Assembly (NCBI GenBank): GCA_030066885.1
Contig: JASJAT010000045.1
Location: forward strand, 1 to 38,160
Direction: 5' to 3'
Origin: Arenicellales bacterium
GTDB lineage: Bacteria; Pseudomonadota; Gammaproteobacteria; Arenicellales; JAANXG01
Length of the DNA stretch: 38,160 bases
Within the stretch, counting starts at the first letter, position 1. Every line of letters starts with the position of its first letter. Position numbers and translations under genes: made by a program. The notes below the pieces were generated by a model, which saw nothing but the letters and a program-made list of their open reading frames with translations, ran no database searches and was not told where the DNA came from. Below, piece by piece: positions 30,451 through 37,267 of this stretch.

Positions 30451-32097
30451 CTAATTTAAACTTCCCAACTCCTTAGCCCGTTCCCGCAGTTTGAATTTTT
30501 GAATTTTTCCGGTTGATGTCTTTGGGAGCTCGCTGAAGATTACAGTCTTGGGGCATTTGTAATGCGCTAAGTTGTCGCGACAAAATTGAATAACCTCTTC
30601 CTCTGACGCTTCTATGCCTGATCGAAGGGTAATGAACGCACAGGGTGTTTCGCCCCACTTGTTATCGGGCCGGGCCACAACCGCGGCAGCGTCGACGCCG
30701 GGAAATTTATATAGGGTGTCTTCGACCTCAATAGATGAGATGTTTTCCCCGCCGGAGATAATAATGTCTTTTGACCGATCCTTAAGCTGAATGTAATTAT
30801 CCGGATGCATCACACCCAAATCACCCGAGTGAAACCAGCCGTCACCCAAGCTCTCGTTTGTTGTGGCAGCGTTTTTCAAATATCCCTTCATAACGATGTT
30901 GCCTTGAAACATAACCTCCCCCATGGTTTCACCGTCTCGCGGCACAGGTTGCATGGTTTCCGGATCTATCACATCAAGCCCTTCGAGCATGTGGTAGGTC
31001 ACCCCCTGGCGAGATTTTTCATGTGCTCGCTCCTCGACGGATAACCCATCCCATTCGTCTTTCCAAGCGCACATAACCGCAGGTCCGTATGTCTCGGTGA
31101 GGCCATACACATGGGTGACTTTAAAGCCCCCTTGTTCCATCGCAGCCAACACTTGAGCGGGGGGTGGGGCAGCCGCCGTCATCACATTGACTTCATGACT
31201 AAATGTTCTGTGCTCTTGATCGGTAGCGTTGATGACCATACCCAACACGATCGGCGCGCCACAAAAGTGGGTAACCTTCCGGTCCGCAATTGCGTTATAG
31301 ATGTTTTCACCACTGACTTTGCGGAGACAAACGCTGGTACCGGCAACAGCGGCCAAAGTCCAAGGGAAACACCAGCCGTTACAGTGAAACATGGGTAGCG
31401 TCCATAGATAAACTGGGTGATGTCCCATGTTCCAACCGACAACGTTACTGATTGCATTGAGGTAAGCACCACGATGGTGATAAACGACGCCTTTAGGGTC
31501 ACCGGTTGTGCCCGATGTATAGTTTAGCGAAATGGCTTGCCATTCATCCTTTGGAAGTGTCCATTCAAATTCTGGATCACCCTCATTTAAAAACGATTCG
31601 TACTCTACTTCACCAATCAACTCACCATCGACTTTGTCATCGTCGACATCGATAACCAACGGTTTACTCTTACATTGAGTCAGCGCTGCCCGAGCCGTCG
31701 CACTAAATTCCTTATCGGTTATCAATACCTTGGCTTCGCCGTGGTCGAGAATAAAAGCCACGGTGGCGGCGTCCAGCCGTGTATTGATTGTGTTCAATAC
31801 CGCACCGGCCATGGAAACACCGAAATGGGCCTCATACATAGCGGGAATATTCGACATCAGCACAGCAACCGTATCGCCCGCGCCAATACCTCGCTTTTTT
31901 AGTGCAGACCCGAGTTGTCGGCAACGGGTATATGTTTCCAGCCAGGTATAACTGCGGTCGTCGTGGACGATGGAGGTGTATTCCGGGTATACAGACGCAG
32001 TCCGTTTGATAAAGCTTAAAGGAGATAGCTGGGTGAAGTTTGCTACCCGTTTTTGTAAACCCGTAGCGTAGGGTCCGGTGTCAACGATATCGCTCAC
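30451..32097 (-). CDS. AMP-binding acyl-CoA synthetase (medium-chain/DmdB-like)
   Basis: 548 residues from GTG 32097; a strong ribosome site (gaggagg, seven bases before) fixes the start. The P-loop is YTSGTTGDPKG (193-203); YGLTETYGP is the adenylate motif, SGDLG and RSKDIIISGGENISSIEVE the hinge, and STGKIQKF carries the catalytic Lys531. The MFHCNGWCFPW segment is shared with the branch that includes 3-methylmercaptopropionyl-CoA ligases (DmdB) and plant AAE proteins. It activates a short or medium carboxylic acid with ATP and CoA in the cytosol. Substrate open. It is divergent from the DUF3604 pair. Confidence 0.9.
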   Translation of the reverse strand: MSDIVDTGPYATGLQKRVANFTQLSPLSFIKRTASVYPEYTSIVHDDRSYTWLETYTRCRQLGSALKKRGIGAGDTVAVLMSNIPAMYEAHFGVSMAGAVLNTINTRLDAATVAFILDHGEAKVLITDKEFSATARAALTQCKSKPLVIDVDDDKVDGELIGEVEYESFLNEGDPEFEWTLPKDEWQAISLNYTSGTTGDPKGVVYHHRGAYLNAISNVVGWNMGHHPVYLWTLPMFHCNGWCFPWTLAAVAGTSVCLRKVSGENIYNAIADRKVTHFCGAPIVLGMVINATDQEHRTFSHEVNVMTAAAPPPAQVLAAMEQGGFKVTHVYGLTETYGPAVMCAWKDEWDGLSVEERAHEKSRQGVTYHMLEGLDVIDPETMQPVPRDGETMGEVMFQGNIVMKGYLKNAATTNESLGDGWFHSGDLGVMHPDNYIQLKDRSKDIIISGGENISSIEVEDTLYKFPGVDAAAVVARPDNKWGETPCAFITLRSGIEASEEEVIQFCRDNLAHYKCPKTVIFSELPKTSTGKIQKFKLRERAKELGSLN

Positions 32098-32340: not shown

Positions 32341-32355
32341 AGGAGATCACACTTG
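32341..32355 (+). promoter_or_regulatory. Ribosome binding site that decides a TTG start
   Basis: aggag at 32341-32345 is seven bases before TTG (32353). The next ATG at 32368 would be 22 bases from this site. The TTG reading also completes the signal peptide. Confidence 0.6.
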
Positions 32356-34269
32356 GGCATCGTCTTTATGGATCGCGTAGCTGCGATCGTGGTTCTTGTT
32401 GTAGCCATTACTTTCAGTGTAACCAGTTCTGCCATGGATCAGATCCCTGATCAGGATACGGTCGTGGAAAAGATCGGAAGAGTGGAGTTTTCACCTTATG
32501 CAGGCCGTGAATACCCGACCAAGGTACTCTGGGGTGACACCCATCTGCACACTTCAGTGTCGGTTGACGCCGGCACCATGAACCGGATCGGCCAGGAGGA
32601 CGCGTTTCGCTTTGCACGTGGTGAAGAGGTCACAACGACCCATGGGCTGCGGGCCAAACTGTCCCGACCATTGGATTGGATTGTCGTGTCCGACCACGCC
32701 GAAATGTATGGATTAATGCCCAGGTTATTAAATGGCGATCCTGAGATATTGTCTCAAGAAAAAGGCAGACGCTGGTACGACATGTTAACGACGGGAGATC
32801 GAGACCAGATCTTTAAAACGGCAATGGAGATTGTCTCCACTCTGACCGACGACGAAACTCCGATTAAAAGCGACAAAATCGTTCGGGACGCATGGCGTGA
32901 ATACACAGCGCTTGCTGACAAGTACAACGAGCCAGGACGCTTTACCGCTTTGATCGGCTACGAGTGGACTGCGATCGGTGGTTTCAACATGCACCGAAAT
33001 GTCATATTCCGTGGGGATGCCAGTGTGGCCAATCAAACTGTGCCTTTTTCGCAATACGACAGCAAGAATCCGGAAGACCTTTGGAGGGCACTGGCCGCTT
33101 TCGAGGAAAAGGCAGGTGCCTACGTGCTGTCCATCCCCCACAACGGAAACCTCAGTAACGGTCGAATGTTTACGGTAGAAACCTTTGACGGCCAGCCTCT
33201 CACCAAGGAAATCGCGGAATTAAGAGCCCGTATGGAGCCTTTGGTCGAGACAACCCAGATTAAAGGTGACAGTGAGGCGCACCCCTTCTTGTCTCCGGAT
33301 GACGAGTTCGCCGACTACGAGACCTGGGACCGGTCGAACCTCAACGGTACTGAACTAAAGAAAAAGGAGATGTTGAGATGGGAGTACACCCGCGAAGCAC
33401 TTAAGACCGGTTTAATGCTGGAAAACAGCCTAGGCGTCAATCCCTACAAGGTCGGCCAGATCGGTAGTACCGATGCGCACACTTCTTTGTCCGCGGTTGA
33501 AGAAGAGAATTTCTTCGGTAAACACTCAGGCGTGGAGCCTGAGCCTCAACGTTGGGAACATCTGGTGATCGAAGCACCCGATCCGGAATTGAGCATATAT
33601 GGCTGGCAGCAAGCGGCATCAGGTTATGCTGCCGTGTGGGCCAAAGAGAACACACGAGAAGCTGTCTTCGACGCCATGATGCGGAAAGAGACCTATGCCA
33701 CAACTGGATCTCGCATTTTGGTGCGGTTTTTCGGGGGATGGAACTTCGAAGAACAAGATGCACAATCCCGGCTCCCTGCCGGCGTAGGGTACGAGAAAGG
33801 TGTGCCTATGGGTGGAGATCTAACCCAGGCGCCGCAGGGCAAGTCCCCGACCTTTCTGGTGGCGGCCATGAAGGATCCCTTGAGTGGCAATCTCGACCGC
33901 ATCCAGATTGTCAAAGGATGGCAGGACGCTGCAGGTGAATTGCACGAGAAGATATACGACGTGGTCTGGAGCGGAGACCGACAACCCGGTACGGATGGCA
34001 AACTTCCGGCTGTAGGCAATACAGTGGACGTTAAGAACGCCACGTGGAGTAACAGTATTGGATCACCAGAACTCATCAGCATTTGGACGGATCCAGATTT
34101 CGATGCGGCAGAGCGCGCCTTCTACTACGCTCGCGTCATTGAAATCCCAACACCACGTTGGACTGCATACGAAGCCTTGCGATTCGGTATCGAGATGAGC
34201 AAAGAGGTTCCGATGGTGACACAGGAGCGAGCCTATACCTCACCGATTTGGTATACACCTGGCTCGTAG
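32353..34269 (+). CDS. DUF3604 exported protein, first of tandem pair (PHP-like metal hydrolase)
   Basis: 638 residues. The signal peptide (VAAIVVLVVAITFSVTSSAM) implies export. The body is DUF3604 and carries a set of metal-ligand motifs like those of PHP phosphoesterases: GDTHLHTS (His64, His66), VSDHAE (Asp114, His115), GYEWT (Glu204), NMHRNV (His214), IPHNGNLS (His263), ETTQIKGDSEAH (Glu299) and GSTDAHTS (Asp374, His376). The C-terminal part ends [10 protein letters not shown]. No activity is established for the family; metal-dependent ester hydrolysis is inferred from the motifs. A close paralogue starts 95 bases downstream. Upstream is a divergent acyl-CoA synthetase gene. Confidence 0.88.
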   Translation: MGIVFMDRVAAIVVLVVAITFSVTSSAMDQIPDQDTVVEKIGRVEFSPYAGREYPTKVLWGDTHLHTSVSVDAGTMNRIGQEDAFRFARGEEVTTTHGLRAKLSRPLDWIVVSDHAEMYGLMPRLLNGDPEILSQEKGRRWYDMLTTGDRDQIFKTAMEIVSTLTDDETPIKSDKIVRDAWREYTALADKYNEPGRFTALIGYEWTAIGGFNMHRNVIFRGDASVANQTVPFSQYDSKNPEDLWRALAAFEEKAGAYVLSIPHNGNLSNGRMFTVETFDGQPLTKEIAELRARMEPLVETTQIKGDSEAHPFLSPDDEFADYETWDRSNLNGTELKKKEMLRWEYTREALKTGLMLENSLGVNPYKVGQIGSTDAHTSLSAVEEENFFGKHSGVEPEPQRWEHLVIEAPDPELSIYGWQQAASGYAAVWAKENTREAVFDAMMRKETYATTGSRILVRFFGGWNFEEQDAQSRLPAGVGYEKGVPMGGDLTQAPQGKSPTFLVAAMKDPLSGNLDRIQIVKGWQDAAGELHEKIYDVVWSGDRQPGTDGKLPAVGNTVDVKNATWSNSIGSPELISIWTDPDFDAAERAFYYARVIEIPTPRWTAYEALRFGIEMSKEVPMVTQERAYTSPIWYTPGS

Positions 34270-34364
34270 GCAGACCGATCGACCCCATCACAGGTTTTTC
34301 ACATATATTCGTTTAAATACCGGCTTAGCCCCGAAAAGTCACACAACTGATAAAGGAGTCATGA

Positions 34365-36296
34365 ATGCGACTTAGTCCCTTGGTTCTTGTCCTCAGCCTG
34401 ATGCTGAGTGCACTACCGGCATTGGCCCAACTGCCCGTCCCACCGGACGCGGAAAAAGTGCTCTCCGATGCCTATACTGGTAAAAGTTACTCGCCGTGGG
34501 CCCAGCGTGGTTTTCCGAGTAATGTGTATTGGGGTGATACCCATCTTCATACCTCTCTTTCTATGGATGCCGGTGCATTTGGTAATCGACTGGGTCTCGA
34601 AGAGGCGTATCAATTTGCTCGTGGTGATGAAGTGGTTGCAACCACAGGTATTCCGGTGAAGCTGTCTCGGCCACTCGACTGGCTGGTTATTTCCGATCAC
34701 TCCGACAACATGGGTTTCTTCCCTGATCTTTTTGCCGGCAAACAGCATATTCTGGCCGATCCCACAGGGAAGGAGTGGTACGATCGAATCCAGGCCGGTG
34801 AGGGGGTCTCGGTCGCGCTGGAACTTATCGGTAAATTTTCACAGGGCGAATTCCCGGAAAGATTGATGTACACCCCCGATTCTGATCCCTATAAAGCGGT
34901 CTGGCAGGAAACGATAGAGGCTGCAGAGAAATATAACGATCCAGGCAAGTTTACCACTTTCATCGGCTCCGAATGGACGTCTCTCATCAAAGGCAACAAC
35001 ATGCATCGAGTGGTGATACACCGTGACGGTGCAGACAAGGCATCGCAGACCGTGCCCTACACCACCACCCCACCTCTAGGCAGCCCGAATCCGCGTGACC
35101 TTTGGAAATGGATGACGAATTACGAAGAGAAAACGGGCGGTGATGTGTTGGCCATTGCACACAACGGCAACCTCGCCAACGGCATCATGTTTCCGCTCGA
35201 AGCGCAATGGGACGGTACGGTACTCGATGAGGAGTACGTGACTCAACGCGCGAAATGGGAACCCGTTTATGAGATCACCCAGATCAAAGGTGATGGCGAG
35301 GCGCATCCTTTTCTGTCACCGGACGATGAGTTCGCCGACTACGAGCAATGGGATGTTGGCAATCTCGATCTTTCGCAAGCCAAGACTAATGACATGCTCG
35401 CCGGGGAATATGCCCGCGAGGCGCTAAAACGTGGTCTTGAGATCGAAGCCCGCCTCGGCACGAATCCGTATAAATTCGGTCATATCGGCTCTACCGACAG
35501 CCATACCTCCCTATCTACCGCAGAAGAAGATAATTTTTTTGGTAAGCATACCGGCTATGAGCCCAGCCCCCATCGCATGGAACATGTGATGATGGAATCT
35601 CCAGATAAAAAGCTTCGGCTCGACGGCTGGCAATTGGTCGCGTCCGGGTTGGCCGCAGTCTGGGCCACCGAGAACACACGCGAGGCGATCTTTGATGCTA
35701 TCGCACGCAAAGAAGTGTATGGCACGACCGGCAGCCGCATGCTGGTGCGTTTCTTCGGCGGGTGGGAGTTCACCGATCAAGATGTCAACAGTCGCTCTCC
35801 GGCATTCACCGGCTACCGCAAAGGTGTACCGATGGGGGGTGATCTACTCCCAGCACCGGACGGTGCCAAAGCCCCGACCTTTATGGTTTATGCGCTGCGT
35901 GACCCCATTGGGGCCAACCTGGATCGCATCCAGATCGTCAAAGGTTGGATGGATGCCGACGGCAAGACCCATGAGAAGGTTTATAACGTGGCTTGGTCGG
36001 GCGGAAGAGAAATCGGTGCCGATGGCAAGTTGCCTAAAGTGGGCAATACAGTGGATGTCGAAAACGCCAACTGGACCAATACCATTGGCGCCTCCGAACT
36101 CACCACCGTGTGGACCGATCCGGATTTTGATCCGGCTCTGTCGGCGGTCTACTATGCTCGTGTGATCGAAATTCCGACACCACGTTGGTCGACCTATGAT
36201 GCTTTTCGATTCGGCATCCCGATCCCTGAAGGCGCACCGACCTCAACCCAGGAACGAGCCTATACCTCACCGATCTGGTACACACCGAAGTCTTGA
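34365..36296 (+). CDS. DUF3604 exported protein, second of tandem pair
   Basis: 643 residues from ATG 34365 with ribosome site aaaggag; an ATG at 34361 reads only four codons. The signal peptide is [16 protein letters not shown] with cleavage before QLPVP. The same ligand set is present: GDTHLHTS (His60, His62), ISDHSD (Asp111, His112), [20 protein letters not shown] and GSTDSHTS. It matches the first copy nearly end to end, including the tail [10 protein letters not shown]. Differences cluster after the ISDH motif and in TDSH versus TDAH. The gene lies 95 bases after its paralogue and is probably cotranscribed with it. A REP pair 33 bases downstream may end the transcript. Confidence 0.88.
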
Positions 36297-36328: not shown

Positions 36329-36372
36329 GAGGGCGCCGCTCTATTGTAGGAGCGGCGCCCTCGCCGTGATTA
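36329..36372. repeat. Back-to-back REP-like hairpin pair
   Basis: gagggcgccgctc (36329-36341) and gagcggcgccctc (36350-36362) are perfect 13-bp reverse complements with an 8-base loop (tattgtag), and the second is itself the REP unit gtaggagcggcgccctcgcc. There is no U-run. It follows the second DUF3604 gene. The gap 36297-36610 otherwise contains the aquaporin relic. Confidence 0.65.
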
Positions 36373-36610: not shown

Positions 36611-37267
36611 ATGAAACCAATCCGTACTTTTTTTGCGACCACAATGGTTGCCTTGTTGTTCACATCCCCCGTTTACGCTGAACGAGAACAGTTTGATACC
36701 GACAAAATGCTCTCGGACCTGGAGTCACAGCTTAAGTTGTCAGGTGATAAATTGGATAAGTTAAAGCCGGCAATGGACGCCAAGAGTGAGGAGCTCAAAA
36801 AAAGCATTCATGAATCGGTGGATGAAGGTTTTATGCAACTGGAAAACCTGACAACACAACTCGATGCGGCCTCTAAAGAAGCGGAGGCACAACTAAAAGA
36901 AGCACTGTCCAGCGAGGAAATGCAGCAGCTCAAAGACTATCTCAATAAGATCGATGCCGAGGCGATCAATCAAATACGGGATGAGCTCGTTGCCCAGTTG
37001 AGTGAGTTTCTCAAGTTGACAGAGGAGCAGATTGCAAAGGTCAAACCGATTTTGGAAGATAGCTTCAATCAGTTGGGCGAGCTGCTCGACCAGCTCGTGC
37101 GTGAAGGCGGCAAAAGTCTTGAAAAATTTAAGAGCCAATTCGATCAACTCAATGAAGAGCTGAAACAAAAGCTGCGCGACAATCTAAATCCCGAGCAGAT
37201 TAAATCTCTCGATACAAATCGAGAGGAGCTAAGACAGAATATAAAGCAGGCTTTGGATTTGAGTTAG
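36611..37267 (+). CDS. Exported helical protein with internal duplication (Spy/LTxxQ-like, hypothetical)
   Basis: 218 residues with a very strong ribosome site (gaaggaggtaaag). The signal peptide ends at VYA before EREQ. The remainder is nearly all amphipathic helix rich in Leu, Lys, Glu and Gln. Two halves repeat each other: 38-110 (LKLSGDKLDKLKPAMD...SSEEMQQLKDYL) and 133-205 (LKLTEEQIAKVKPILE...NLNPEQIKSLDTN). LTEEQ...KVKPIL and NPEQIKSL are the kind of words seen in the Spy/CpxP family of periplasmic stress chaperones. It is likely periplasmic and cage-like or coiled-coil; no function is established. It follows the DUF3604 pair and a relic gene. Confidence 0.75.
   Translation: MKPIRTFFATTMVALLFTSPVYAEREQFDTDKMLSDLESQLKLSGDKLDKLKPAMDAKSEELKKSIHESVDEGFMQLENLTTQLDAASKEAEAQLKEALSSEEMQQLKDYLNKIDAEAINQIRDELVAQLSEFLKLTEEQIAKVKPILEDSFNQLGELLDQLVREGGKSLEKFKSQFDQLNEELKQKLRDNLNPEQIKSLDTNREELRQNIKQALDLS

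Follow-up and report, generated by a model that had tools for sequence, protein, structure and literature searches.

The DUF3604 gene pair

The analysis concerned a DNA stretch of 38,160 nucleotides from an Arenicellales bacterium (Gammaproteobacteria; assembly GCA_030066885.1, contig JASJAT010000045.1), referred to at its full length as the window, and in particular the two adjacent DUF3604 genes that it harbors. DUF3604 proteins are widespread, often with several copies per genome, and lack an assigned function; the literature searched contained one incidental mention of the family and no assigned function, in agreement with the original prediction, which had been made from the sequence of the window alone. 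The two genes are located on the same strand and are separated by 95 bp; their products share 57% identity and cover essentially the whole PF12228 (DUF3604) profile, with scores of 790 bits (copy 1) and 818 bits (copy 2) versus a cut-off of 20.4. Both full-length, exported-looking open reading frames (ORFs) and all the motifs that the original prediction had named were recovered in the two copies.

The TTG start codon of copy 1 is preceded, 8 bp upstream, by an AGGAG sequence (32341-32345), and an in-frame ATG at 32368 represents an alternative start giving a protein of 633 residues; a Shine-Dalgarno-like AAGGAG (34353-34358) is found upstream of copy 2. Judged by their N-termini, both proteins look like Sec-exported proteins. 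A promoter scan of the region found nothing. The perfect inverted repeat lying downstream of copy 2 likely marks the end of the transcription unit, suggesting that the pair probably constitutes a two-gene unit. The features of the locus are reported in Table 1, at the end of the next section.

Candidate metal site and predicted fold

The conservation of the two proteins was evaluated on 80 related loci fetched from named genomes, whose ORFs were extracted to give an alignment of 90 proteins (A2). Nine residues, i.e., H60, H62, D68, H112, E203, H214, H266, D378, and H380 (copy 2 numbering, used hereinafter), are invariant in 90/90 sequences, and D111 is kept in 88/90. The invariance pattern of these nine candidate ligands is thus far beyond chance. 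Other invariant polar residues (R215, N267, N269, E303, Q306, K308, E312, D321, and R351) may be regarded as candidates for substrate binding.

The AlphaFold2 model obtained on the A2 alignment reached a predicted local distance difference test (pLDDT) score of 93.4 and a predicted template modelling (pTM) score of 0.90; the first 45 residues of copy 2 had low to moderate pLDDT. A Foldseek search against the PDB ranked PHP proteins at the top, with E values of only about 0.001. In the VIA-align comparison, the best matches were the two-domain PHP-like protein BVU_3505 (3e38; Z 15.7, 229 residues, 3.4 Å) and TM0559 (2anu; Z 15.3, 216 residues, 3.8 Å), followed by PsfC (7rty; Z 12.4, 212 residues, 3.9 Å), 3o0f (Z 10.1), and RNase AM (9etk, Z 8.7; 7ug9, Z 8.5). 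The seven PHP entries span Z 8.5-15.7, and the next unrelated rows have Z 4.1. In the model, the candidate ligands are predicted to lie at, or right after, the ends of successive strands, like those of a barrel active site. A PHP-type distorted β/α barrel is thus supported at the level of the predicted model. The structural comparison with PHP enzymes that the original prediction had proposed turned out in favor of the PHP-type metal site postulated there, since the matches of the predicted fold to PHP structures (Z up to 15.7) are well above the background and the candidate ligands follow the order, and partly also the spacing, known from RNase AM.

In RNase AM, three Mn ions are bound by H13/E72/D255, E72/H83/H198, and D20/H45/H257, and R201 clamps a sulfate (PMC9410882). 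The predicted fold of DUF3604 matches that of the RNase AM/CV1693-type PHP proteins (7ug9, 9etk, 2yb1; Z 8.5-8.7); its candidate ligands occur in the same order, with the E-x10-H spacing in common (E203-H214 versus E72-H83, 11 residues). However, DUF3604 proteins are much larger, apparently exported, and provided with a C-terminal β-sandwich, and R201, located three residues past H198, corresponds to N269 (Asn in 90/90), an equivalence that rests on spacing, so that another DUF3604 Arg could occupy its place in space. The Asn at the position of the clamp Arg makes a phosphoesterase activity less assured, even though the metal site still appears complete. The two best structural matches are titled just as predicted phosphoesterases, and 3e38 is about half as long as DUF3604. 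PsfC, which has a PHP-type fold in common with the DUF3604 model, is a shorter protein of phosphonate biosynthesis, a dinuclear non-heme iron oxidase that converts 2-Pmm to 3-OBPn (PMC12871164); therefore, the fold is no guarantee of hydrolysis.

At the sequence level, the links to known families are faint. The CehA/McbA model NF038032 matched residues 61-119 of copy 1, a region containing HxH...SDH, with 16.1 bits (E 0.0057), far below its family cut-off of 80 bits, and it did not match copy 2. The HHalign comparison with two narrow CehA/McbA alignments aligned just one short segment, located beyond the barrel. Neither copy matched PF02811, the Pfam PHP domain (one subfamily model), at E ≤ 1, and no meaningful match was retrieved when solved structures were searched by sequence with the single sequence, the 90-sequence profile, or the N-terminal segment.

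Table 1. Features of the DUF3604 locus (positions refer to the window; residue numbers are those of each copy; fractions are family members keeping the residue).
Feature	Position	Strand	Remarks
DUF3604 copy 1	32353..34269	+	638 aa; TTG start; PF12228 E 2e-237, profile positions 3-591 of 591
Copy 1 signal-peptide-like N-terminus	32353..32433	+	By eye from sequence; ...VVLVVAITFSVTSSA/MDQ boundary
Copy 1 candidate motif HxH...D (H64, H66, D72)	32542..32568	+	Equivalent columns 90/90
Copy 1 candidate motif DH (D114, H115)	32692..32697	+	H 90/90, D 88/90
Copy 1 candidate E204 (EWT) and H214 (MHR)	32962..32994	+	90/90
Copy 1 candidate HNGN (H263)	33139..33150	+	H, N, N each 90/90
Copy 1 candidate DAH (D374, H376)	33472..33480	+	D, H 90/90
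DUF3604 copy 2	34365..36296	+	643 aa; ATG start; PF12228 E 6e-246; pLDDT 93.4; PHP Z 15.7
Copy 2 signal-peptide-like N-terminus	34365..34427	+	By eye from sequence; ALA/Q boundary
Copy 2 candidate motif HxH...D (H60, H62, D68)	34542..34568	+	90/90; H60 ends predicted strand 53-61
Copy 2 candidate motif DH (D111, H112)	34695..34700	+	Follows predicted strand 106-109
Copy 2 candidate E203 and H214	34971..35006	+	Spacing 11; predicted strands 196-204, 215-219
Copy 2 candidate HNGN (H266; N269)	35160..35171	+	Follows predicted strand 261-265
Copy 2 candidate DSH (D378, H380)	35496..35504	+	Follows predicted strand 372-375
Copy 2 C-terminal Ig-like β-sandwich, residues 458-643	35736..36293	+	Type tentative; Ig-like matches only, Z 3.3-4.1
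Perfect 13-bp inverted repeat downstream of copy 2	36329..36362	+	Without T-run; putative terminator

Recurrent neighbours of DUF3604 genes

The ORFs flanking the related DUF3604 genes were clustered, and two partners recur among the 42 well-flanked loci, i.e., those with at least 4 kb on each side. The first one is a parvulin of about 290 residues with one N-terminal hydrophobic segment and a Rotamase_2 domain (27/42); the second one is a HupE/UreJ-2 protein of about 335-365 residues carrying the PF13795 membrane domain (26/42), and both are present in 24/42. They are mostly encoded on the same strand as DUF3604 (parvulin 35/37, HupE/UreJ-2 32/35), and the gap between DUF3604 and parvulin genes has a median of 69 bp.

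Since the loci had been retrieved via DUF3604, the genome-wide co-occurrence represents the proper test of linkage; parvulin was scored as present at E ≤ 1e-25. Among 84 genomes of the order, parvulin was found in 17 of the 20 with DUF3604 versus 2 of the 64 without it and, conversely, DUF3604 in 17/19 genomes with parvulin and in 3/65 without. When the family of the window was excluded, parvulin occurred in 9/10 versus 2/63. In a sample of 114 genomes of the class, it was present in 4 of the 6 genomes with DUF3604 versus none of the 108 without (inversely, DUF3604 in 4/4 with parvulin versus 2/110 without). The corresponding Fisher values (7e-13 for the order, 6e-9 after the exclusion, 2e-6 for the class) are optimistic, because related genomes are not independent. 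The full-length HupE partner was found in the class sample only in the same four genomes; elsewhere, the membrane domain alone was matched.

In the model of the HupE partner (pLDDT 88.7), the predicted periplasmic β-sandwich matches those of ZrgA (Z 10.6), PA4063 (Z 10.0), and Ang-1 (9gce, Z 7.8), and the apparent signal peptide is followed by His in 15/20 sequences and by Asp in 5/20. ZrgA is a zinc-binding protein, and the anglerase architecture has been named for Ang-1 and Ang-2 (PMC12537917). The HupE/UreJ-2 partner comes close to the two-part architecture of the anglerases, ZrgA, and PA4063, and its mature N-terminus is mostly His; it differs from the anglerases in its shorter periplasmic domain and in its linkage to parvulin and DUF3604, neither of which is named as a neighbour in the text of PMC12537917. 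The recurrent DUF3604-parvulin-HupE/UreJ-2 module appears to be new, being unreported in the literature searched, which is thin in subscription journals.

In four Bacteroidota loci (L067, L069, L073, and L082), genes for a ZnuA-like protein, an ABC ATPase, and an FtsX-type permease are located directly upstream of DUF3604; the same loci carry HupE, and three of them also parvulin. The ZrgA/PA4063-like domain, together with the ZnuA/ABC neighbours in Bacteroidota, makes zinc a reasonable first guess, by analogy, for the metal of the DUF3604 module. A sulfatase gene lies near DUF3604 in eight loci (L009, L013, L014, L020, L022, L036, L037, and L081), in five of them within 300 bp, and DUF1254/DUF1214 genes are found nearby in four to six loci. 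As raw counts with no background, the sulfatase, DUF1254/DUF1214, and ABC/FtsX/ZnuA neighbours give only hints as to the substrate or the metal.

The divergent acyl-CoA synthetase of the window (30451-32097), which had been suggested to activate the acid released by the DUF3604 enzymes, did not prove to be a conserved neighbour: it was rejected as a partner, since the flanking regions fetched for the 80 relatives contain no protein closely homologous to it (the best match reached 30%).

Proposed mechanism, alternatives and the two paralogues

The best explanation of the data is that the DUF3604 proteins are exported PHP metallohydrolases with dedicated folding and metal-supply partners, to which a probability of about 0.6 may be attributed. 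The computation shows the family assignment, the invariance of the ligands, the match at the level of the fold, the co-occurrence, and the synteny, while export, metal identity, hydrolysis, the roles of the partners, and different substrates are inferred. Each gene would encode a periplasmic, Sec-exported PHP-fold metalloenzyme, in which a distorted (β/α) barrel is followed by a C-terminal β-sandwich. The barrel would hold a two- or three-metal site formed by H60, H62, E203, and D378, by E203, H214, and H266, and by D68, H112, and H380; a water molecule activated between the metals would then, most likely, cleave an ester-type bond in a small molecule located outside the cytoplasm. In the family at large, the membrane-anchored parvulin would probably aid the folding of DUF3604 after export, and the periplasmic domain of HupE/UreJ-2 would probably capture a transition metal, zinc being the likeliest, and supply or balance it. 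DUF3604 would probably depend there on both operon partners, which the source genome encodes elsewhere. With its ligands named within a PHP fold and with a co-inherited parvulin and metal-capture permease, DUF3604 becomes a testable system, as regards the metal, the bond, and the loading by the partners; if the proposal is true, the recently described anglerase/HupE proteins would gain a possible client enzyme.

Some findings weigh against this interpretation. Foldseek alone gave no match with E < 0.001, the metal motifs were not aligned by HHalign to the two narrow CehA/McbA alignments, and the candidate ligand site of the model is read from residue order and strand positions. As for the metal, those bound in vitro by the published Ang-1 domain are Cu and Ni, not Zn (PMC12537917). 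Moreover, in the order sample, 3 of the 20 DUF3604 genomes lack parvulin, and two genomes have parvulin without DUF3604. Lastly, the parvulin and permease genes do not adjoin the pair of the window: the source genome harbors two parvulin-HupE pairs on other contigs (C30 and C16, the latter pair following an AraC-type regulator), which is why the statement on the partners is drawn from relatives. This lack of linkage in the source genome, the existence of genomes holding just one part, and the wide occurrence of the HupE membrane domain alone without DUF3604 are what one would expect if HupE/UreJ-2 and parvulin were tied to DUF3604 only via general metal and envelope homeostasis. Yet this is considered unlikely, given the strong co-occurrence and the tight same-strand synteny across several phyla.

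With respect to the reaction, phosphate esters are the substrates of most PHP proteins that have been characterised. DUF3604 might accordingly be a phosphoesterase acting on phosphomono- or diesters in periplasmic phosphate scavenging, consistent with the complete three-metal ligand set and with the presence of RNase AM and of 3o0f/3e0f (putative metal-dependent phosphoesterases) among the structural matches. This appears improbable: the sulfate-holding Arg201 of RNase AM is N269 by spacing, and no gene for phosphate uptake was noticed in the clusters of recurrent neighbours, in contrast to the sulfatase genes of the eight loci mentioned above. It is rather doubtful that the exported PHP fold, a maturation module dedicated to it (membrane-anchored parvulin and anglerase-type HupE/UreJ-2 metal permease), a periplasmic metallation pathway of its own, and a possibly non-hydrolytic, PsfC-like chemistry all come together in the DUF3604 proteins. 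Nor is it easy to regard them as O2-dependent diiron oxidases of the PHP fold resembling PsfC, which performs an oxidative decarboxylation in fosfomycin biosynthesis, and not as hydrolases. Among the structural matches, PsfC ranks third, ahead of RNase AM, an established hydrolase whose phosphate-clamp Arg is replaced, by spacing, by an invariant Asn; however, PsfC is no closer than 3e38 and 2anu, PHP structures without a known reaction, keeping a metal site ferrous is harder outside the cytoplasm, to which DUF3604 is apparently exported, and all nine ligands of the three-metal hydrolytic site are retained. An oxidase is thus highly improbable, and the exported metallohydrolase is preferred.

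Tandem DUF3604 pairs were surveyed, as the original prediction had suggested, and were found in 18 of the 53 loci with flanks; in 19/19 pairs tested, they are heterotypic, i.e., the tandem partner is not the closest relative. In the phylogenetic tree, the clade of copy 1 comprises six rows (support 100) and that of copy 2 eleven rows (support 99), both including other phyla, and the closest relatives elsewhere share 75% (copy 1) and 81% (copy 2) identity. Since the partners are never mutual closest relatives, the pair did not arise by a recent duplication and separate roles are likely; the sequences suggest ancient paralogues with separate histories, probably acting on different substrates. 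A duplication that merely raises gene dosage, as the identity, near-identical motifs, and adjacency of the pair might recall, is a very remote prospect in view of the different supported clades shared with other phyla, the closer relatives elsewhere, and the non-sister partners. The idea that the two copies serve two substrates, and not dosage, is thus indirectly sustained by the heterotypic pairs and the separate clades, while the residues originally invoked for it carry little weight. Position 379 (TDxH) is S in 66 and A in 15 of the 90 family members, and position 113 (after DH) is S in 68 and A in 20; TDAH/TDSH was rejected as a mark of specificity, S and A both being common across the family.

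Downstream of the pair, the window encodes (36611-37267) a 218-residue, apparently exported, strongly charged, and probably helical protein, with only weak apolipoprotein-like profile scores and no relative in the fetched loci. Other relatives were observed in the source genome (G000). A remnant of a third DUF3604 gene (G000:C181:18641-19012, within L100) covers profile positions 464-591 and contains four stop codons. An ORF with distant similarity to DUF3604 (52 bits), cut by the contig edge and at least 618 residues long, is located at G000:C135:1-1858 (L101:2-1858); its homologues in sister genomes are 790-817 residues long, and it possibly belongs to a separate subfamily. On contig C96 (L098:4334-6334), a HupE/UreJ-2 gene is divergent to a DUF4198 gene, an arrangement resembling the published Ang-1 neighbourhood (PMC12537917).

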